Source: Halichondria panicea (Eukaryota; Porifera; Demospongiae; Suberitida; Halichondriidae). From it: a stretch of DNA of 64,000 nucleotides. The notes beneath the pieces were generated by a model. That model ran no database searches and was not told the origin of the DNA. It saw only the letters and a program-made list of their open reading frames with translations. Each line of letters begins with the position of its first letter. Position 1 is the stretch's first letter. The stretch lies in the NCBI RefSeq assembly GCF_963675165.1, contig NC_087383.1, forward strand, positions 6,967,139-7,031,138. Reading direction: 5' to 3'. Positions 21,070 to 52,222 of the stretch are shown in pieces. The position numbers and the translations under genes are program-made.

Positions 21070-21968
21070 TACAACAACGGTAACGAATCCTTATGATGAA
21101 TTAGATGAAGCTAGTTGTATGTGAGCTCCTCCCTGACAAACAAACTGTAGTCTAGGTAACGGCCTTATCAGTCAAGTAGGCTAAAAATCTGTGTCCTTTG
21201 ATGTAAGCTTTGATGTCTCTTTGTGCATATGTAGTTAAAAAAAAAAGAAACCTTTGACTAGCTAGAAAGAGTAGCAGTAGTAGTAGGAAGAGTAGCAGTA
21301 GTAGTAGCAGTGCAAGCAGGACTAGACTAGATTAAAAAGTTGGTAGAAAGAATAACTGACCGTTTGGACGTCACCTGGCTGCCAGACTTTCATCTCGACT
21401 CTTCCCCCTGAGTAGCTGGCCTTTCTCTAAGCCACAAAACTGAGCAAGAAGCTGAAGAAGCAGCTAGACAGAGACATGTACCTAGCCTTGAGAATTGGGA
21501 GGCGTGGCTCAACTAGTTAGCCCAGCCCAGAGGAATTGTTACCGTGGGTACTGAACAACAGTAGAAGTAGGGCTACCCCTGGCTTTACTGAATTAACTAG
21601 CTGTGTCTGCTGTCTAGTTGGACCAGATATTTAGCTAGATAATGGGGTAGAGAATAGTTGAGCGGTGCTGTGTGTAGCTTGAACTGTACTGGCTGGCAAG
21701 AATCTAGTAAGCACCCTATGCACTGATAACTCGTCAGAATGGAGGGTATGTTCTAGGGATCTGGACAGCTGTACATCCAAAGGAGCCAGGGAGTGCCAAT
21801 CATCTTCTCCCAGTCTCTGACACGCTAAACAAAACGAGCTAGAACTGGGAGTCCCAGCTAGCCGGATCTAGACTAATAGAATGACATGGAGGCGTGGTGA
21901 GGCCGGATCCACACTAATTGATCTACCTAAAGACGCTCCTGTTCCAGATTTTCACAAATGGCAAGGAA
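21070..21968. other. No recognisable gene
   Basis: The stretch contains short AGTAGTAG-type repeats (21270-21310) and many small frames without family motifs. It forms the left flank of the large transposon. Confidence 0.5.
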
Positions 21969-21977
21969 GGAGCTTCC

Positions 21978-22105
21978 CAGAGGAGGATCGTCAGGGTCAA
22001 AAGGTCTTAATCATAAAGCTGCTTCCGGAGGACTTTAATTGAAATTCCACTCATCTACTCTTCCTTTAGTATCTCCAATTCACGTGGAGCTAATCAAGCC
22101 ATACT
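21978..22105 (+). repeat. Left terminal inverted repeat of the HIRAN transposon
   Basis: It matches the reverse complement of 27537-27672 across 'aaaaggtcttaatcataaag', 'gcttccggaggactttaatt' and 'tagtatctccaattcacgtg'. The right copy has six extra bases after 'cacgtggagct'. The first ATG of the plus-strand gene (22106) abuts its inner edge. Confidence 0.9.
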
Positions 22106-23164
22106 ATGCTCAAGCCACAGCTTTTACAGAATCAAATGGCTGAATCAACATACATGGCTCAGTCAGAACCAGAGGTAGAACTACCCCCAAAGCAAGAAGT
22201 AGTTGTATGTATTCTGAAATGGGGAGCAGTGTACCAGTACACTATTCCTGGATTTTCAGTAATAACAGTTTCTCTTAGGCATGCTGAAATTCAAGCACAA
22301 CAAGACAATGAAATCCTACTTCTGGATGTCTTTTTCCGCAATGAATCATTGCCAGACACAAATTTACTTCCTCTTCCATTGACGGCTACTATAGTCGAAG
22401 CTTGTTTAGTAGAGGTAAGTGGATATTATAATTATGAGTGACAACCAAAAGTATTGCTAGCTATACTATGAAGCTATTATTATTAGCAGACACAGTGCCG
22501 TACAGTAATACTACGTCTTTTTCCATGGTTTCACAGGGTGAGGAGTTTGCAAATGAAGTGGAAGAGGTACTGAATATGCGACTGTACAGCGGAAGCGTTT
22601 TAGTGGTTTGGAAGTGGACATGTGATGACACGACATGTGATGACACGACAATGTTCACTGAAAACAGTGAAGAATCATATAATAATATTATTGTTCAAGA
22701 TTCTGACGATGAAGACAATGTTTCTAATGAAGGTGAAGCAGTAGATACTGTCATAATTATGTATGGCTACTGCTCGGGAACATACCATCACCTTTAAATG
22801 CATTGGTGCTACTCGTGACCAAGCTTGGCAGCAGTCATTGCGAGCCGCTAGAGACAAACTCGAGAAAGGAATAGTAATACCAGTACGATTAAAACCAGAA
22901 CCGAACAATGTTAGAGATTCCAAAGCTATTGTATTTGAATGTTATTTGGAAGGAAAGTGGTTTTGTATCGGCTACATTGTGCAAGAGCTTTTGGATGAAG
23001 TCCACGATGTCATCAAGAAGGGGCTTATTGCCAGAGTCGAGTTTGACTGGATAAAGTACAAGACTAATTGGACATATTCAGGATCTGGGTATTTTGCCGG
23101 GATTTCTATAACAAAACTTGGATTCTGGAGTGACAAAGTGGTTGCTTGTCAGAGTGGCAAGTGA
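22106..23164 (+). CDS. HIRAN-domain protein of the transposon, two exons, one frame break
   Basis: HIRAN is a small OB-like DNA-end-binding domain known from HLTF/Rad5-type SWI/SNF ATPases. Exon 1 (22106-22414) encodes MLKPQLLQNQMAESTYMAQS and a conserved-looking 100-residue N-terminus. A GTAAGT donor and ...TTTCACAG acceptor join in phase to exon 2 at 22537, which is acidic (QDSDDEDNVSNEGE). The HIRAN domain follows in the +1 frame from 22763: VRLKPEPNNVRDSKAI, then WFCIGYIVQELLDEVH, ending at 23164. The shift between 22740 and 22790 may be a small indel, a missed short intron, or two genes. A duplicated 'catgtgatgacacga' (about 22618-22649) lies in exon 2. It is convergent with the transposase, whose stop is about 120 bases beyond. 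Confidence 0.75.
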
Positions 23165-23285
23165 TTAGAACAATTAATGATGCATTAATTTTAATTTCAA
23201 GTTTAAACGTTAATTTCTGACTTTGGTATCCATGAGTAAAATTAACGATGAGAAAATTGTGATTACGTAACTGTAGCTATAATTA

Positions 23286-26200
23286 TTAATGTTGAGCATA
23301 TGAATGTTCATCAGTGACTGTGGCTTGTAGTGGTGGGGGTGGTAATTCAATGGGAAGGTTATGGAACCTCCTTCGTATAGACTGTGCACCAGCCTGTACA
23401 AGTGTGGCTCGTCCGGGTGCCAGGTTTCCTGGTTGTTCTCTTGTGCGAACTCTTTGGTGTCTTGGATTCCTTTTAGGACGTTGGAAAACTTCAAATGAAG
23501 GACGATCAGCCTCAATAAATCTCTCGTTCGTGGAAGTATAATAAAAGAATGGGAGATCTTTGTTCAGACGTTTTGCAAACTCGTTGCACAATTTTCTCCA
23601 TACAAATCGAACATCCTTTACAGTGAAATGATTACCAATCATGCTGCGGAGCAGACTAAAAAAGCATTCTACGTCATCTGTTGAGCTAGATCTTGGATGC
23701 TCGGGAGGCATGTTCTCACACAAATTTCGATTTTTAATCCATTCTTTGCTCTCAATGGTTGTTGTAAGTGCTATTAGTACTTCCCTGGTGAAACCTCTGA
23801 TCTTCACTGGAAGCCTATATAATTATATGAAAAAATGGTTACACTAAAAACAGGTATTTTTAATACCTGTTCACTTCTAAAGAACTTAGATCACACTGCT
23901 TGTGCCAAGGGATTAGGTCATCTTTTATGAACTCTAACATCTCCAGATTATAAATGCTCCGTTCAGATTCAGACAATCCTCTCTCGTCAGATGCACGTCG
24001 CCAATTCAGGATCACTGTTATATACTTTTCCTCAAAGTCGTATTTCTTTTTCTTCATGTATTCTTTCATTGAAGACGAGAACAACCTCTCAGCATCACGG
24101 ACAGATTGTTTGCGTTGTCCAGTGAGTGCTGCATAGGTTAAACCTGACAACGGATCCTCCAATGCAGGTGAAAAGCGTTCCAGCTTCAGCTCATTAGGGC
24201 CACCACATCGAGTTGAAGTTGCCATTCTCTATATAATATATACGAAGTACACAATGTTACGTACTGTATATATAAGTACTGTATAAGCGCAACATTTTCG
24301 AGGGGCTTAATTTTCGCTGATTTCGTGGGTTAGCAATCCTACATGAAATAAGTCCTCAAAAATGTTTCAGAATTATCTGCTATAACGTTCAGAGATTAAA
24401 GGCATGGCATGCAACGGTAAGCAGTCATTTCACAAACATTGTGCAACAAAATGCTTTTAGAGCTAGGCCATTCCACGAAATATAAGTGTTCGAAAATTTC
24501 ATGCTACATTTATACTATATACGTAGTCCAGCAATTAATTAATACCTTCAAAATATGAGCATCATCCTCACGTTCATGGAACTCCGATTTGGTTGTCGGG
24601 TGTACTTCAGGGACATAAAAATGCGTCTTGAAAGGCACACCTTGATCGTCCCATGTACAAATCTGGTAGGTATATTCCAGCTGAGACATAATAGATCGCA
24701 ACTTGTCACATAAATCTTCCTTTCTTCCTGAAGGAAAAGTGATACCGTGTACAAACATTTCACAATAAAGTTGATTACCTGGCATCCAAGGCTTAGGCAC
24801 GTACTCAGGAGGAACACACCGTGATCTTAGCCTATCCACAATGTCGTCCAAGGATGCACCACTTCTCTTCCATGAGTGAATTTCTTTCAGTAGTGATGCC
24901 GAAACAGCTGGGTTTTTTCTAACAGCTTGAATGGAACCATCAGTTGACTCTGGTAATTGGATGCCATAACTCATTTTTATATATCAATTAATGAAGTTCT
25001 CACCTATGGATGTAATCATTTCTTTCATCCTTTTCACGCTCATGGAAGAGTACTTTTTCCGTGCCTGCGACTGAATCTGGAAAACTGACAAAGGACGAGT
25101 ATAGCCTTTATGTCTGAAGACGTTATATTCTCCATTGCTCACAAACCCTATACAGCAAGACAATAAAAAGGAGATCAGTATACAGTTGAATTAGGCTTCT
25201 AAATAACCTTCAACACGAAGTCCTTGCTTCACCATTTCCTCAGCCACTGCAGAGATATGTGAGCGGGCTTTTGCTTCACTTAGGCCAACATATGGAATGC
25301 ATGCAATTGGGAGAGCATATGGTTTGTGATTTCTTTCACTCGGGCTAATCATTGTGACCAGCACATGGGTAGCAGGTGTTCGCTGGTGTCGAGTGACTGC
25401 CTTCACAAACTCTTTTAAAGTACCTTGCAGTTTACCCACAGCATACTGTAAGCCAAGGCTTGGACTACTTTGATCTCTAATACTTTCCTTGAGGGTGGAT
25501 ACTTCAACAAGTAGAGATCTGCACTGCTGATTTAACCTAGACAACTCATCAACATTCCAGCCAAGCGCATAAAGCACTTTATCGGTTGTAGATACAGAGG
25601 ATTTCTCTTCGAACTCCTTTTGTGCTTTTCTCAAAGCTGCATCATGAATATGATTTGTATATTCATGCACTCCTGCTTTTATTTGTATAGTGGCCTTACC
25701 TGAATCAACACATGTGCCATCCTCCTTCAATTGAACAGCAACATTCTGGAGATTTGAAATCAACATGATTTCGTCACACACAGAGAGGTTGTCAATAAAT
25801 TCCAATCGTTTCAAGTAATCACTGTATTGCTTCTGGAGTAGCCCATCACCGAAGTCCACATCTCCATTCCACATATTCTTCATAGACACCATTAGCCCAG
25901 ACACAACATCGCAGCCATCGGACTTAATCCACCAACGTGAGCCAGGCAACTGTGCCGCTGCTTGCTCAATAGATGCAACCTGTATAATTTTTATCATGAG
26001 AACAATTCCATATTAATTTGAGTATACGCACTTGGATATCAGAGGTGATTGTGAAATCACTACTTGCAATACCACGCTGGATTGTCCTTGCTGATAGAGC
26101 AGGAATATTAACCCTGGCCTGTGAAAAAAGCATCAAACTATAATTTACAAGTGAGATAGAGGAACATACAGCAGTGCTTTGTCTTGAACTTGAAAGTGGT

Positions 26201-27472
26201 ATGCACACATCTGCTCCACTGTCTTGTTGAGTACCTTCCACTTTCCACATCGGTCCACTGTGGAGGTTAAGCCATTTGTTTCCGAAAAGAGTGTACATTG
26301 TCTCAATCCACAATCTATAGTCTTTAGGGCAAGGAATCTACATGGGAAAGGAACATCAAAATAACTATGTACACTATAATAATTATATACGCACTAAAAT
26401 AGGCAACTTTGCATTTAGTGAATTTCTGCAATCACAATAATTATGCATCTATACATAATTATTACAGTGCGCAGCAGGCTTTATACATGTACTTCAGTAT
26501 AATTATAAATACTCTTACATTTGAGGAACCAACAAAAAAGTTGACACAGTGCTCAAATAGGCCTGAAATCAATCGTTTTGAAGGGAAGATTGAGTCACTA
26601 CCATCTGTCCGCTGTTCTCCTAATCCTTGGCTCAGCCCATACAAAAAGTTACTCCGACCGCTACATTTCAGTTGTTTCATCGCTCTCAAAGACAATGCTA
26701 TGAAGTCAGTTGGAACAATAACACCTTCACTTTCCACTACTCTCTGAAAGAGCTCTCCGATCAATTGGACCTGTTCCTCAGCACACAGCAGTAAAAACTC
26801 TTCCTTAAAGGGTTTCATCGTATCTTCAGCAAAAACATGGACTGGAGTGAAACATATAGGAGACGAAGGAGTAGTATTGATGTCCTCTGAGTTTGTGGTG
26901 AGCAGCTCAGCAAGTGATACTAGGTTTTCTGAAGAGGTTTCTGAAGAGGTTTCTGTAGATATTGTCTGTGAAAAAATAGCTTCTCCGTCAAGGAACTGCT
27001 TTGCTTCTTCGACACTCTTAAACAATGACGGCAATTTACAAGTTGCCATAGATCGACAGGCTCCACCTGTTATATAGGATTATTATGGGATACAGTAAAG
27101 CTCACATTTAGGGCGTGCTAATTGGTATTGGTCACTTAATAATCACTTACTTGTTCTTAAGATGCCAGTCTGCTGTTTCAAGACTGCAGATGCCTTCTCC
27201 CATGTTGATATCCTCTTAGAGTACACCCAATTCTTTTTATCGCCAATACCCTCAACGTATTCAACTAATACCCTCTTCTCGGGAGTTGACCAATCTCTAG
27301 CTTTGGAGCCAGAGATACTCAAATTAGAAAATGAAAGCTGTTTCTTTGAGGTTGAGCCCATAAGCCTTCGGCTTTGTTTTGCTCGTTGCTTGGGTGTAAT
27401 TCCAGTGGGAGTCCCTCGGGCACGTTTAGCACATTCATCTCTAGTACTGCTAGCCCTGGATGATTCAGCCAT
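23286..27472 (-). CDS. Large multi-exon transposase-like protein, one in-frame TGA
   Basis: Eight minus-strand exons join in phase: 27151-27472, 26519-27066, 26170-26337, 26032-26118, 25208-25979, 24546-25147, 23867-24228, 23286-23814. They total 3,390 bases (about 1,129 codons). N-terminus: basic, then a Myb/SANT-like segment (WSTPEKRVLVEYVEGIGDKK NWVY). Middle: SRWWIKSDGCDVVSGLMVSM with DVDFGDG, a likely catalytic Asp region, then a coiled stretch. Later: FHERED, TGQRKQSVRDAERLFSS, and near the C-terminus HPRSSSTDDVECFFSLLRSM, which I take as the place of the last acidic residue of a DDE/D-type nuclease. An in-frame TGA at 24984-24986 interrupts it; the alternative, a 34-base intron, is out of phase. 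A MITE sits in the 24229-24545 intron. The catalytic assignment is inference. Confidence 0.75.
24286..24512. mobile_element. MITE nested in the transposase intron
   Basis: It starts 'tataagcgcaacattttcga' and ends with the inverse '...tcgaaaatttcatgctacat', matching the family at 17739-17935. It lies entirely within the intron 24229-24545, so it post-dates the host transposon without damaging its exons. Confidence 0.65.
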
Positions 27473-27536
27473 AATTCTCTGATCAGTCTGTTTGAACTTT
27501 AATAGCAGGTGGGTGAAAGCTATCTATGGTAATACT

Positions 27537-27672
27537 AGTATGGCTTGATCAGCTTTTGAGCTCCACGTGAATTGGAGATACTAAAGGAAGAGTAGATGAG
27601 TGGAATTTCAATTAAAGTCCTCCGGAAGCAGCTTTATGATTAAGACCTTTTGACCCTGACGATCCTCCTCTG
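27537..27672 (-). repeat. Right terminal inverted repeat of the HIRAN transposon
   Basis: Inverse of 21978-22105 with a 6-base insertion near the inner end. It lies just upstream of the transposase start codon (27472) and probably carries its promoter. Confidence 0.9.
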
Positions 27673-27702
27673 GGAGCTTCCGCAAGGCTCGGGAATTGAG
27701 GG

Positions 27703-27790
27703 TAGCCTCGATCCCAGGCCGAGTTTTCGCTTTTATAACGGTTAGGCAAACAATATATAAAAGCGAAAACTAGGCCTGGGATCGAGGCTA
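27703..27790. mobile_element. 88-bp MULE-like miniature element
   Basis: TAGCCTCGATCCCAGGCCG and its inverse enclose only about 40 bases, including 'ttttataacggttaggc', the same subterminal block as the element at 990. Flanks are GAATTGAGGG (27693-27702) and GAATTGTGGG (27791-27800), a 10-bp duplication with one mismatch. It inserted 22 bases outside the right repeat of the large transposon. Confidence 0.85.
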
Positions 27791-38179: not shown

Positions 38180-41100
38180 CTACAGAGAGTTACTATAAAC
38201 TCTTCCTGGACCAATGTCATCAGACAGTGACACCTCCTGTAAAATATAAAGACATGCAATCAGCATTAGTTTGATAACACTGTCATACAAGCTAGTATCA
38301 ATAGTACAGTCTGGCATGTATACCCAACACAAGACAATAATGCATGACTGTGGTAAGCATGTACATCACTGAAATTAATCTTGATTCTATACTCACTTGA
38401 GTCAAGTGCTGACAGATATCATCAGCTATCTTGTCTTTCCTCAGTCCCAGTATCAACTCCAGTAGAGCTTTGTAAGTTGCTGAGAAAGGATCGTGTCTTT
38501 TCCAGAGAATCAAGCATTCAGTCATGGCTACTTGAGTTCCATTCTTATGGTACAACTCATTCACATCGGCCTGTTCTGCAGGAGTTAGTCCCATTGCATT
38601 CGCATAGATTTTTGACCCGTCGAAATATTCGGCCAGGTAGGAATTATCAGAGTCCCCTATTTCACTATTGAGCTGCTCGTCAGTCAGACTGTATCTGCTC
38701 ACTAGACCTTGGAGTGTGACTCGATTAGCGGGTGGTCCTATAATTATAGAGGTCCATTATTATACTAAATAGCAATCAAAATAATAACTATAAGCATTTA
38801 TGTCCTATCACTTCAGTCTCTACCTCACAATGACAATACAATTGTATGGTACATCAATGCAGCTAGATCGATGATTTTTGTTCAAAAGGATCGATATAAT
38901 TATAAATAATTGTATGTATCGCAAAAGTCCAAGTCTAAAATTAATGGCTCCATCAGCGGAGCCTTGCAGCTGTACCATGCATGCAATGGTAGCTTTTTAT
39001 AGTGCAGAGCTAATAACTACTAAGTATAGAGTAGCAAAACCACCTCTGTGGACAAGTTTTGCTATAATTGTGCACTCTTCTGAAAAGGTTGCAATGGCAT
39101 TCCAAGTAAATAAAGGCATATTAACTCGAGAACAAAGCATTATTTTGCAAATCCACGAAAAAAACATGGCTATAATTATAGAAACTCTTATACTTGAACT
39201 TCATTGATCCTTGAGCAGCTGAAGCAGACACACACACAAACACAGTACCGTATATATATACCTTGAACGCCCACTGAGGCAGAAATAATAATAACCCCTA
39301 AACCTATTATAAACGTGCATTGTTAAAATTAATGTGCCACAATTAATTTTAGTGAGATCTCACCACGGCTTGAGGGTAATTGTCTGACTTCTGTCCTCTC
39401 CTCAATAGTTGTCAACGTGGCTCCGTCTAATAAATTATATAGGAGGGGAATACAGTCATTCACGAGAATTTGACTATAATTATAACCATGCATGTAATAT
39501 CAGGTAAACAATAACAGTATATAGCTATAATAAAAATCAGTGCATGGATTGCCACTTTCAGACGCCCAAGGGGATAAGCGGCAAAATGGGTTAATTTAGT
39601 GCTCACCTATTGTGCTTGGACTGGGTGAGGGTTCAGACTCATCAGGTTGCTGCGGCAACATGTTTTCACAAAATAACGTAGGAACAACACCAGCCAAAAC
39701 CTAATCATGAGACAAAAGTATATTTCAACATAACAAACTTATGAGTCTGGAAACATGATACAATTTTGGTACATAATGCACATAACATTCAATTAGTTTC
39801 CATGACTCACGAGAGGGTTCTTCCCAGAGAAGACACTGAGTGGATCCAGAATCAGTCTCAATGCTTTGCAAGTGCCGTCACCACTGTCCCTCCTCCACAC
39901 CGTCAGAACATGCTCTAGACTGCCACTGATTCCATGTGTGCTCTTAGCAGCCCTAGAAACAACTGAACAAACAATGTCTGATAGTTCACGATTCTTGCTC
40001 CAACAAGATGAAAGAGCTGAGAGCAGTCCATCAGAGAGTTTCTCATCGTGTGCTGGGTCACCTTCGTTGTATAGAGCTTGTAGAATATTCTCACCGAGAT
40101 CAGCGTACACTTCAGATTGGAGCAGCTCACTCACTGGTACAACTTGTGTGCTGGTTGTGGATTTAACGAATTCCTTCTGACAAGAAATACTTTTAGCAAC
40201 AGATTTCATACTAAACAATGGAGCACCAGCGATGTCAGTGGAAGGTAACAACCGTTCGTCCGTGTCTATGTTGGGGCAAAACTCACGAGCAGCTTCAACC
40301 ACTTTGTTGATAACAGTGGATCGTACATCGAGTACATCTAACGAGACCTTAGGTGCTTGTAGTTGAATAGTGACACTCTTCATCTCCATCACCTCAACAC
40401 GGACTCTGATTCCATCCTCAGTGACCCAACACACACCAGTCTTCCAGACTGAGCATTGACCTTGCAAGGCAGGATTGTCAGTGTCCACCACTGGAGCAAG
40501 ACCAAGCGATAGAGACAGTCGAAGGAGAAGAACGTGAAGAAATCGAGGGTTGAAAAAATGGTCATTGTGTGCACAGGCCAGGGACCAGTTGAAATTGTAC
40601 TGGAAATTAATAGTGTTGGCCATTGGTTCGCTGGAAGCTACCAATCGGATTAGTGCTGGACAGAAGATGAAGCCTCCAGAGACGGACACAGACGTTGCAG
40701 GAAGATGCTGGTCGATAAGACTGAGCACTATTTTGTCTTCAATTGGAACGGCTAGCTCGAGATGAAATAAGTATCCAATGAGCATGTCGATGTTGAAATT
40801 GGGGAAGTGTTTAGAAAGATCTGATTTTAGAACAACCCCAGTACTTGTGGAAAGCTCACAATGCTGTGTGAAATCTTCGGGAGCAAAGATGGTGCCATTT
40901 ACTTCAGCCAAGAGTTTCGATTTGTCAATAACGATGAAGCTCCTTTCTGGAAAGGAAGCATTGCAAAGGAAAAGAATATGACCTTTGTCACTGAGTTGAA
41001 CACAGATCTCAACAAGTCGTGGAATGCTGGTGGGCACGAAAGAAAGAACTTTTTCATCTTTTCTAGAAACTCGATCCTTTATTTTCCCTTGAACTTCTTC

Positions 41101-42008
41101 CAGGGTTACAGCAATCTCACCCGAGTACTTGTCAAGAAGGTGGACAAGAAACATATGAGCATTGAGGCTCACAGACAACCGCTCTCGAATGGAAGCACAG
41201 CTAGTTCCAACAATATCCCTAAAAATCGTCATGCCATCAGAACTTGAAAAACGACAATCCATTGAAACAAAACCAGCAAGATCAAACATTGGAAACTTTT
41301 GAACGGCTCGTACTATAATTTTCTTCTTTTGCTCCGCTTGTGTGCTTGTCACGAGATCAGCATGACTACCTATCGCAATGAGTGGTGCTTTGCCCTCCAT
41401 ATTGCCACACTGGTTGGCAACAATTCCCAACCAATAGGAGACAGAGGTTGCTGTGATGGTGTCGTTATTCTGGAGACTGATTACCATGACAAAAACGGGT
41501 GGACACGTATCGACTGTATTCTTGATAATGGCAGCGTGACTGCTGTAGTAGATCTCTTGACCAGCAAAGTCATAGACCAACACATCTCCAAAGACACGGC
41601 TCTTGAATAATCGAGGGATGATTCCGGCTGTTTTCTTGCTAACTCCATCGACTTCTTTAGGAGAGACGAAGATGTTGACTAGAGATGTGAATGCAGTTGG
41701 CTCGTGTTCCATTGCTTCAATGAGAGTGCTCTTTCCTTCTCCACCGTGGCCGATAACAAGCATCTTCACTGGGTTTTTCAGGGGATCCTTTGAAAACACG
41801 TTACCAAGAGCTTTGCGATGATTGGTATAGACATCTTCGGCAGTAGCTCCATGTTGCAACAAGAGTAGAATGATTTCCTTGTTCTCGGCAAGAAAGAGTG
41901 GTGTGTGTCCATCGTCATCTTTGATATTGGGATCACAGCCAACAACGTCATTCAGAAGATATTCCACGATTTCGGTATTCCCATACTGGCAGGCAAGTAG
42001 AAGAACAT
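38180..42008 (-). CDS. Ankyrin-Roc-COR-Death (ROCO family) protein, C-terminal 917 residues
   Basis: Minus-strand exons 39811-42008, 39607-39700, 39364-39426, 38397-38737 and 38180-38236 join in phase with no break. The first begins in a split codon, so upstream exons exist. Order: ankyrin units (LLLACQYGNTEIVEYLL, DDDGHTPLFLAENKE); a Roc GTPase with P-loop GHGGEGKS, switch II DFAGQE and base-recognition GSHAD; COR (about 300 residues); a linker rich in S/P; a Death domain (SLTDEQLNSEIGDSDNSYLA ... GLTPAEQADVN ... CLILWKRHDP); then a short tail. ROCO proteins are GTP-switched signalling scaffolds; a Death domain implies apoptosis or innate-immune signalling. An interspersed repeat lies in the intron before the Death exon. 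Confidence 0.9.
39000..39240 (-). repeat. Interspersed SINE-like repeat in ROCO intron
   Basis: The reverse complement matches the family at 46133-46500, including 'ttgatccttgagcagctg', 'ttccaagtaaata' and 'cactcttctgaaaaggt'. It fills part of the intron between exons 39364-39426 and 38397-38737. Confidence 0.6.
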
Positions 42009-44981
42009 CTGTAATGGATATGCATCAGTAATCATTAAGCACTTACATAATTATATGCAGTACTCTATAATAATGATTCGTTCATACAAGTTTTGGTTAT
42101 TCGAAGATATCTCATACATTCACGTGTTGTGTAATGCATGATTATAGTGTAGGTAATTATAATTGTATTGTGATTTACTTATTATTGTCTTGCGTCATCT
42201 CTACGATGTACATCAAAGAAATTGCGAGTACTACAAAATAATGACAGAACTCACTGAGCCGTGACCACAAGGGCAATAATGAATGCGTAAAGCCAAGCGT
42301 CGTGCTACAATACGCCTACGCCCATATTTTAAGATTTAATTACAGTAACGTTAACCATAGAAATCACACATAATTGACAAGTTATAATGTCATGAAATTC
42401 AACATGTACAGTGCATCCAGCAGAGAGTAGATTACTGGCTGCACTTAAATGTTGATATCTTTTGATTAGAAATGGTGCTGATACAGGTGAATGAATAAGC
42501 TATATAATTATACACCATATCCCAAAAAATTAGAATGACGCTTTAATCAACCACAAACTTAATTAAGAGTGGGCGTACAGTTATTGTAGCCCACTTATGT
42601 GGTTGAAGCGTGATTGGTTTGTGGTTAGCAGCTGCTGATGTCATCAAAACAGTAGAAAATAGTAAAATTTGTAGTTTTTCAGTGTTATTACAGCAATGGA
42701 ATAAGCATAGAGGATGTTCTTGGTATCAAAACGTAGCCCATTAATTTTATCTGTAAACTTATTATAGAAATTTGAAAGCTATAATTATAAGCTATAATTT
42801 TCAGAAGTTATTACTCTAACCAAAAGTATACCTAAAAATCAGTAAATCATGAATTATATACACTGTGAACATATATAAGACCCATGAAGAATAGCCAGGA
42901 TACCTAAACCATTCAACATGCAACTATCTTATGAAGTCCGAGACCTTAGCTGTTTAAGGTTAGTATTTTATTACTCTAACCGATTACCCACTACAACAAT
43001 TTGCTGTTGTTCTTATTAATCCCCAAACCCACCACCTCATGTTGTCATGGAAAGTTTTTGGGATATGTTGTAGCTTATTCATTCACCTACACAATGGTAT
43101 CAGCACCATTTCTTAGAAAGGTTCCAATCAAACATTTAAGTACAGCCACTCACACAAATGTGGTAATCTACTCTCTAAGCTGCATGGATGCAATAACAAT
43201 AGAGATAAAAATTAATAATTATTCCTTTTTCGATACTGTATATTGGGAGATGTCTGAACACATTCACATGAATTGAATAAAGCAGATCCAAGGTTCTAAA
43301 TCAGTTTTGTTGTAGCTGTTGCTTCTGTGAGCTGTTTATAGGAAGGAGCTCTGCCTGACAGCATAATTAAACTTCGTAGCCAGTCAAAGAGCCAGAACAC
43401 ACGAGCCATGGAGAGAATCAGAACACAACAATCAGAGAGCCACAAACAGGGCCAGAGGGAGTAGACCTTTCAACATGACAGTTAACCTTTCCCAGCTCAA
43501 AATACAGACACCTTTTTTTTTTAAACTAGTAACCCAGACCCCAGCTATCTTGACACTATCATCATTACCTAGCAACTGACCACCCCCACTAACTAGTAAT
43601 TTTTTCACAATTATGTCAATATTGTATGAAGGCACAAAGAGACTAAAGACACTTAATAAGTGTTCTCAATGTTCTCACGGTGACACGGTTCAATCAGGAT
43701 CTGCAGAAACTTCTCTGCGAGGTTGTATTTCAGTGAGGATTATAACGGGTCAATAATAGCTAGAAGATCGACCAAAGATTCCAACGTTCGGTCACAAAAT
43801 TATTGACCGGGCAGAATTATCACGTGGCTTGTGTTCAATAAGCAGGAAATGTCATGAAAAAAACAGATATCACGTGATTGATTGAAATAGCCATTTTTGT
43901 GATAAAACCAGTGCATGCATGTATCATGCTAAGCCTCGATTCCAGGCCGCACTACACATCAGGGAAGTGGCCGGTGAAGGAGGCTAGCATATCATGCTAC
44001 GATAGCTAGCTCTAGCAAACAAGCAAGAGACATGCTACTGTGGCTACTTTAGAGTGAGAATTAAGGACTGCACATTTCAACTTCTTGACTGACCACTTTG
44101 TGCTATGTGTAGTCTGACATTTGTCACTTCACGTCTATTTGTGCACTAACTAGACTATAAGCCACATAATTATATGATGTTCTATACAGGTCCAGGACTT
44201 GGTCTATAATTATATGATTATGCTCAGGAGCTTTTTCCTCTGGCTCTCCATGTTATAGCTTGATCTCTGAAAAGCATAGATTCCTATTATACCTATATAG
44301 CTATAATAATTATTATGATCCACATAATTATGATGTTCTATAATTATTATAGTTACTTACAATGTCCAGGAGACTTGTTCTATAATTATATATGCTCAGG
44401 AGCTTCCTCTGGCTCTCCATACATGCTCTTTATTAATAGCTTGATATCTGAAAAGTAGATTCCTATATGATCCCAGTCACTGCATGTCCTCTCACTCAAT
44501 AATTATAAGCATCGTTGTTTAGCTGCCCTATATAAAACACCCTGAGGTTGTACTACGAAGATATTGGAGCCATTATCAAACGGTCACTAATCTTAGCCTC
44601 GTTCCCAGGCCTTTTTTCTTGCCGTTGTTCATCCATAAATAGAAGGTAGCAAAAAAGAATAGCAAAATAAGGCAGCATGCAAAAAAAGAAATTGGGGTAC
44701 AGTTAAGAAAAAGTATAAGGGCTTGGTTTAGGAAATGGCGTGATCCACAAGGATATTTATGAACGTGGGAGATATGTAGCCCACAATCGGGACGTAAGGT
44801 ATTCTCCCACGCATTCAATAATAATAAGACTTGTACTGAGATACTGCATGCCAACAAGCTACTGCATGCAAAGTCAGGGAACTAGCGTGGCCAGCTCTGG
44901 TGACAGTATAGCTACCTGCTAGATGATAATGATGACTAAGCTATTAGTTTAGATCTAAGACACAAGAATATAATTATTCTA
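42009..44981. other. No recognisable gene
   Basis: A 91-codon plus-strand frame (43001-43276) is unrecognised and lacks support. A short MULE-like miniature is at about 43932-43986. A pair of similar blocks ('tccaggactt ggtctataat' and 'tccaggagac ttgttctata') at about 44190 and 44360 indicates a local tandem duplication of about 170 bases. I could not find the upstream ankyrin exon of the ROCO gene here. Confidence 0.4.
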
Positions 44982-51292: not shown

Positions 51293-52222
51293 TATGGTGA
51301 GCCTTTTGTTTCAAAATGGCGATACAAAATACCATGTGTTGGTGTCCCAAAAATCAACTCGATTTTATCGACTTTATCTGGTAGGGATCGACTCGATGTG
51401 TTATATCAACTCGATTTTATCCAGGTAAGGATCGACTCGATGTGTTTTATCAACTCGATTTTATCCAGGTAAGGATCGACTGGATGTTATCAACTTGATT
51501 TATCCAGGTAAGGATCCACTCGATGTGTTTTATCAACTCGATTCCAGGCCGCTGGGGGAAAAGGCGAGTTTCGAGGGCGGCTTGATATCTAGGCTATCTA
51601 TGGCTGTACTCACAAAGGCGCTAGGCTCAGACAAGGCACTGAGACTCTTGAGTCCACATGCAGGCCTACAGCAGGTCAGAGTAGCTGACCTTCCAGGTAC
51701 GCCTGCAGAAGGTCACAGCAGCTTACTTGTGCTGGATCACAGTAAATTAAATCACTAAATGCTGGTCTACTTGACTCTTGAGTTCATGAAACATAGCAAG
51801 TAGCTGCTGTGTGATCTCAGGCTCAGAAGGTCCCCATCTGAGCTACTCTGAGCTGCTGTAGGCGTGCATGTGGCCTCAAGAGTCTCAGTGCCTCTTGTCT
51901 GAGCCTAGCACCTTTGTTGCAAGAGTATAGCCTTGATATCAAGCCGCCCTTGAAACTCGCCTTTTCCCCCAGCGGCCTGGAATCGAGTCGATCCTCTCGA
52001 AATCGAGTTGATAAAACACATCGAGTCGATCCTTACCTGGATAAAATCGAGTTGATAAAAACACATCGAGTCGATCCTTACCTGGATAAAATTGAGTTGA
52101 TAAAACACATCGAGTCGATCCTTACCTGGATAAAATCGAGTTGATAAAACAAATCGAGTTGATTTTTGGGACACCAACACATGGTATTTTGTATCGCCAT
52201 TTTGAAACAAAAGGCTCACCAT
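51293..52222. mobile_element. 930-bp foldback element with subterminal tandem repeats
   Basis: The element starts TATGGTGAGCCTTTTGTTTC and ends with the inverse. Almost its whole length folds: left arm about 51293-51750, right arm about 51770-52222. Within each arm a unit of about 44 bases ('ggatcgactcgatgtgtttt' + 'atcaactcgattttatccag') is repeated about three to four times. ATTTCCC flanks it at 51286-51292 and 52223-52229. Duplicate 1 has a single ATTTCCC (4445-4451) and no element, so insertion came after the duplication. No protein is encoded. Confidence 0.9.

Follow-up and report, generated by a model that had tools for sequence, protein, structure and literature searches.

The window analysed here is a 64,000-nucleotide stretch of the Halichondria panicea genome (C7:6967139-7031138); the genome searched comprises 131 Mb in 39 contigs. 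At positions 21978-27672 of the window lies a DNA transposon bounded by inverted ends ~130 bp long; it has a 9-bp target site duplication (TSD) and two convergent spliced genes, one for a HIRAN-domain protein on the forward strand (22136-23164) and one for a large transposase on the reverse strand (27472-23286). Gene models were built from splice signals and homology (Table 1). The two convergent genes had been predicted from the sequence alone, as had the start and end of the element, which proved exact. The outer 114 bases of the terminal inverted repeats (TIRs) are identical between the arms and are followed by 19 nt more at 95%, and in the genome search the left arm aligned with the right arm over 129 bp at 93%, in keeping with the predicted length of ~130 bp. 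An apparent arm pairing of 117 bases arises because three TSD bases pair by chance. The flanking repeat of the original prediction was found to abut both element ends directly. Within the window, the 21-base end piece CAGAGGAGGATCGTCAGGGTC occurs at both TIRs only, and it appeared in none of 100 shuffles.

Table 1. Features of the transposon, in window coordinates.
Feature	Position	Strand	Description	Basis
Left TSD copy	21969..21977		GGAGCTTCC	sequence; 9-bp TSDs in other copies and short derivatives
Left TIR	21978..22106	+	begins CAGAGGAGGATCGTCAGGG	repeat search, genome search
HIRAN gene exon 1 (inferred)	22136..22415	+	N-terminal domain	open frame and GT donor
HIRAN gene exon 2	22538..22797	+	end of N-terminal domain, acidic linker; frame then breaks	
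HIRAN domain frame	22757..23164	+	135 aa stop to stop; 133 aa from possible ATG 22763	
Transposase gene	23286..27472	-	9 exons, 1111 aa	GT-AG borders
Transposase exons 1-5	27472-27151, 27066-26519, 26337-26170, 26118-26032, 25979-25208	-		
Transposase exons 6-9	25147-25004, 24949-24546, 24228-23867, 23814-23286	-		
Exon 5	25208..25979	-	candidate first catalytic D396 (WWIKSDGCD); P-like RNase H match starts	
Exon 6	25004..25147	-	second acidic site N/D-G-E-x-N (N637, E639)	
Exon 7	24546..24949	-	D-x-x-H signature (D809, H812)	
Exon 9	23286..23814	-	candidate late catalytic E985 (STDDVECFFS), conserved tail	
Right TIR	27536..27672	-		repeat search, genome search
Right TSD copy	27673..27681		GGAGCTTCC	sequence

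A search for an empty site with the joined flanks gave no junction-crossing match among the 40 scored of 568 candidates. The left flank (window 21820-21977) belongs to a high-copy repeat, and these 40 include 39 other places, at 91-94%, that end near the insertion point. On the other side, 21 bp outside the right TSD, lies another MITE-like repeat, a small hairpin element at 27703-27790 with 35-bp arms that are 97% complementary and an 18-bp spacer. Farther along the window, a 743-aa open frame on the reverse strand (39793-42024) shows, by eye, ankyrin-like repeats, then a P-loop (GHGGEGKST) and a region resembling Roc/COR. At 51368-52163, two oppositely oriented arrays of a 44-bp unit, ~460 bp apart, resemble the subterminal repeats of another inverted-repeat element.

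The transposon belongs to a family dispersed through the genome. Matches to the HIRAN exon were found at no fewer than 64 places, to transposase exon 5 at a minimum of 31, and to the last transposase exon at 34 or more. Both ends and a TSD are present in eight of the 12 copies examined, the window copy included. The TSD is 9 bp long in seven of these eight (one of them mismatched) and 8 bp in the remaining one. TIRs of the other copies, as read from stitched copies and printed flanks, start CAGAGGAG, and their 9-bp TSDs are GTTGGGAGG, TGATGTGTC, GATAATGGG, GCACCAAAC and CTGATTTCC, with one pair differing by a single mismatch (GATTAGACC/GATTAGATC); the 8-bp duplication reads ACACCGGT. The length of the TIR pair ranges from 18 bp (C15) to 188 bp (C12). 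A scripted TIR search found no pair in the C16, C5 and C6 copies, and the C9 copy is truncated at one end. Matching TIRs bound the gene pair in at least eight copies; the two-gene transposon and the recurrence of its TIRs elsewhere with the same content, both raised by the original prediction, are thereby supported.

The window TIR itself has at least 69 matching places, many of them inverted pairs (40 of 85 candidates scored). Among 28 TIR loci that were fetched, 13 are short elements whose 9-bp TSD has one mismatch at most, 12 of these elements being 173-195 bp long and one 450 bp; two of the loci are one place. The other 15 loci comprise five with 7 of 9 TSD bases alike, two end pairs without a TSD and eight without a pair. 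By its TIRs and TSDs, which recur at unrelated sites, the element is a cut-and-paste TIR DNA transposon.

In the window copy, the frame of the HIRAN gene is broken between the acidic linker and the HIRAN domain (~22757-22797). Linker and domain share one open frame of 190, 201 and 193 aa in copies C8:4372k, C10 and C8:4922k, respectively, and of 274 aa in the C4 copy. The window domain alone matches PF08797 (HIRAN) at E 0.026, below the Pfam cut-off, and its predicted identity gains support from the relatives: eight of nine family members match the profile at E up to 1 (best 1.5e-9). Genome-wide, 18 places exceed the HIRAN cut-off, eight of which are places of this transposon family. In a search of PDB sequences, the HIRAN domain of human HLTF ranked first at only E 0.1, and the sequence link to HLTF itself is therefore weak. 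The resemblance to HLTF/Rad5 HIRAN domains consists in the PF08797 match and in N-x-x-D and G-Y/H positions that align to HLTF, whereas the transposon protein is small and stands alone, without Snf2 or RING parts. At the position aligned with what we take to be Y93 of HLTF, tyrosine is found in five of nine sequences (the window and 8 of 17 HIRAN copies), phenylalanine in one, arginine in two including the window, and valine in one. Four short copies (L024, L025, L026 and L027, on C14, C3, C6 and C2) carry near-identical 127-aa HIRAN frames resembling the C5:4959735 copy and are likely internally deleted, recently spread derivatives. A second HIRAN group, at C6:1680934, contains stops and looks like a degraded relative.

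The original prediction of a large spliced transposase gene holds, but the length of ~1,129 codons given there is replaced by 1111 aa in the present model. Eight of 11 other copies align nearly full length to the window transposase at 41-45% identity; the C5 copy does so at 41-45% from residue 166 on, and the C6 and C9 alignments are partial. All 11 aligned copies required at least one frameshift in the alignment (1 to 12). Except in the C9 copy, which is misaligned before its last third, the conserved residues are D396 and D399 in WWIKxDGxD, then D415 and D417, E639 in (N/D)GExN and, later in the protein, D809 and H812 followed by D983 and E985. The pair D809xxH812 is invariant in all seven rows of an alignment made from the window and six of the 11 copies, from which the near-duplicates C12, C15 and C16 and the partial C6 and C9 were left out. 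A stretch of 241 residues separates D396 from position 637, and 172 separate the latter from D809. Position 637, with which the second D of P-type enzymes aligns in a profile alignment, is N in the window, C8:437, C8:492, C12, C10, C15 and C6, and D in C4, C14, C16 and C5. The copies with N637 include some with long matching TIRs and TSDs (C8:437, C12); they may either have been moved in trans or use E639 as a substitute. The predicted SANT-like N-terminus finds weak support among the relatives, with Myb_DNA-bind_4 in two of the six N-termini aligned at E up to 1 (best 0.0012), but not in the window copy, where the domain gave no match. Comparison of exon 5 with viral contigs gave eight pattern matches, none confirmed, and the transposase profile met chance matches only among PDB sequences.

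The transposase had originally been placed in no superfamily. The protein can now be placed near the P-element/THAP9 branch, though outside it by several features. The TNP-like RNase H N-terminal domain (PF21787) matches five of seven members at E up to 1, including C14 (1.3e-4) and the window (0.0086), and the best match (E 4.8e-5) reaches 24.1 bits where the cut-off is 24.6. Of three copies scanned individually, C8:4372k had no PF21787 match at E up to 10. The match spans ~65 residues, about positions 59-128 of the profile, and stays below the cut-off. In a local comparison of profiles (hhalign), pieces of three P-like ORFs from this genome aligned with the transposase over 61 columns (E 3.3e-4, probability 38%), the pieces being 306-406 aa long and the comparison excluding the C-terminal half; global profile alignment with the same ORFs gave nothing. 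A putative RNase H fold may be read from PF21787, at best 4.8e-5 and below its cut-off, and from the conserved D, E, D-x-x-H and E. The predicted DDE-type assignment gains some support from the relatives, whose PF21787 matches stay under the cut-off.

Further likeness to P elements lies in the combination of TIRs with TSDs and in a [C/D]xxH signature between the second D and the last E, represented here by D809xxH812; the signature is described for the P superfamily in the available part of PMC8230255. The late E, in its D-x-E-x-F-F context, presumably also resembles that of P. However, for P elements the accessible portion of PMC7776569 gives TSDs of 8 bp and a THAP domain, whereas the present family has 9-bp TSDs in seven of eight copies, a weakly Myb/SANT-like N-terminus, inserts of its own and a HIRAN partner gene. 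THAP was not matched in any of six N-termini at E up to 1, and in four proteins no other P-type Pfam domain was found at E up to 10. The transposon was not classed as a P element, given that its TSDs are mostly 9 bp long, that no THAP zinc finger was matched and that the P-type domain set (GTP-binding, RNase H N-terminal and RNase H C-terminal) was not matched in full. Judged from sequence comparison, the transposase appears to be a very distant relative of the P-element/THAP9 transposases.

Canonical P-like elements also occur in this genome. Those at C1:5068183 and seven other places have an identical PF21787 score of 92.4 bits, which suggests recent P-like activity. Of 46 P-like places, two have one of the 76 HIRAN positions within 10 kb, with ~0.5 expected by our estimate, in a test that took in 58 of the 64 HIRAN-exon places. 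We considered but did not adopt a connection of canonical P-like elements with HIRAN. One of the two places lies outside the C10 element; the other (C15:4219009) holds an ordinary P-like transposase that has no match to the present family and is 41-46% identical to local P ORFs. In the C15 case the P-like transposase (L096, C15:4218790-4219390, forward strand) is convergent with a HIRAN remnant on the reverse strand (C15:4222525-4222872), ~3.3 kb apart, and the pair can be read as chance or as one element.

How firmly the two genes belong together was assessed by chaining matches to the HIRAN exon, transposase exon 5 and the last exon into clusters with gaps <6 kb. This gave 66 clusters, 34 of them with transposase. 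HIRAN is also present in 25 of these 34, and the gene pair accordingly recurs in many copies; by our estimate, a HIRAN cluster would lie within 6 kb of a random place in ~0.5% of cases (57 in 131 Mb). The convergent order of the window is found in 24 of the 25 paired clusters, which are not fully independent because some are recent duplicates of each other, and the exception has HIRAN matches on both strands. No HIRAN match was found in nine of the 34 transposase clusters, and no transposase match in 32 HIRAN clusters, although at least one counted among the latter (L049) retains a transposase tail (E 7e-4). Among seven lineages (C12, C15, C16, C6 and C9 left out), pairwise identity ranges from 0.35 to 0.54 for HIRAN and from 0.43 to 0.55 for the transposase, and the two are correlated (Mantel r 0.73; 3 of 5040 orders reach this value, the real one included). 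Such co-divergence speaks against a HIRAN gene captured repeatedly or recently; it favours the long joint maintenance of two genes that travelled and diverged together.

On balance, we lean towards a two-gene cut-and-paste transposon whose transposase is distantly related to P/THAP9 and whose HIRAN protein is an accessory factor binding exposed 3' ends. The transposase, with its Myb/SANT-like N-terminus and a putative split RNase H-like core containing D396, D/N637 or E639, and E985, would bind the TIRs, excise the element by cuts that leave 3' single-stranded ends, and attach its 3' ends to the target DNA at sites separated by 9 bp. The HIRAN protein would bind the exposed 3' ends, either those of the transposon or those of the donor gap, and stabilise or protect them until strand transfer or repair. 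Its mode of action is probably that of a P/hAT-type cut-and-paste transposon to which a partner, the HIRAN protein, has been added; here 'its' refers to the element as a whole. The stagger made by P transposase leaves 3' overhangs, and P, to our knowledge, needs no second protein. P transposase uses GTP and makes 17-nt staggered cuts and 8-bp TSDs, as stated in the part of PMC7776569 that was available. The role of HIRAN is suggested by analogy with HLTF, whose HIRAN domain accommodates a dinucleotide of single-stranded DNA between Y72 and Y93 (available text of PMC4666394) and reportedly binds DNA at 3' ends (a title cited in PMC4666394); the transposon protein may likewise bind 3' ends made during transposition. 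However, as the residue equivalent to Y93 is tyrosine in only five of nine sequences and arginine in the window, literal transfer of the HLTF mechanism is weakened.

The same transposon could be imagined with a HIRAN protein that targets chromatin or expression, not cut ends, through nuclear import, anti-silencing or the recruitment of host repair or PCNA factors. Some second proteins of other transposons act in this way, among them the Myb-like protein of Harbinger and the anti-silencing factors of MULEs. The separate N-terminal domain and acidic linker of the HIRAN protein would suit such a role, and PIF/Harbinger mobilisation requires two element-encoded proteins (PMC2836001, in the part available). 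Nevertheless, we rate this as rather unlikely, given that the only recognised domain of the protein is HIRAN, known as a DNA-end-binding type. Far less plausible still is a functionless passenger, that is, a host gene fragment caught by the transposon. The HIRAN clusters without a transposase match, the broken frame in the window and the degraded C6:1680934 copy could be read in this manner, but they are set against the single arrangement of 24 of 25 pairs (recent duplicates among them), HIRAN frames kept at 35-54% identity between lineages while co-diverging with the transposase, and the transposase tail of the supposedly HIRAN-only L049.

Two further readings concern the classification of the element. 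A separate superfamily of animal DNA transposons, sister to P, in which HIRAN would be an obligate transpososome subunit capturing 3' overhangs and the invariant E of N/D-G-E would bind metal in place of the adjacent second D, is put forward only tentatively. Similarly, we consider it possible, if doubtful, that Repbase/Dfam already contain the superfamily of this element with HIRAN included, for example as a divergent P or as an unclassified sponge or cnidarian family. The profile signal does point to P; on the other hand, the P elements described in the available part of PMC7776569 combine 8-bp TSDs with a THAP domain, and the HIRAN-domain literature that names a transposase or transposon contains no such element by title or opening of the abstract. 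Nor was one present among the matches listed for literature on sponge transposons and new superfamilies, as far as their accessible text goes.

The HIRAN-assisted cut-and-paste transposon favoured here has partial counterparts among known systems. Harbinger elements have a 3-bp TSD, and no Harbinger Pfam domain was matched in the present transposase. PIF/Harbinger likewise pairs a transposase with a second element-encoded protein and has MITEs (available part of PMC2836001), but that protein is Myb-like, whereas the present family has a HIRAN protein. KolobokP, too, is a DDD/E transposon with an acquired second DNA-acting protein, a His-Me nuclease; it differs in its TTAA TSD, its long terminal direct repeats and the nuclease in place of HIRAN (PMC9587614, as far as available).

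The best-known proteins with a HIRAN domain are repair ATPases working at replication forks. A transposon retaining its own HIRAN protein through deep divergence would offer a small, separable system for HIRAN action on DNA ends, and suggests that a dedicated binding partner may be required by some transposon ends. Further, P/THAP9 transposases gave rise to host genes, and the family described here is a candidate for a new branch near them.
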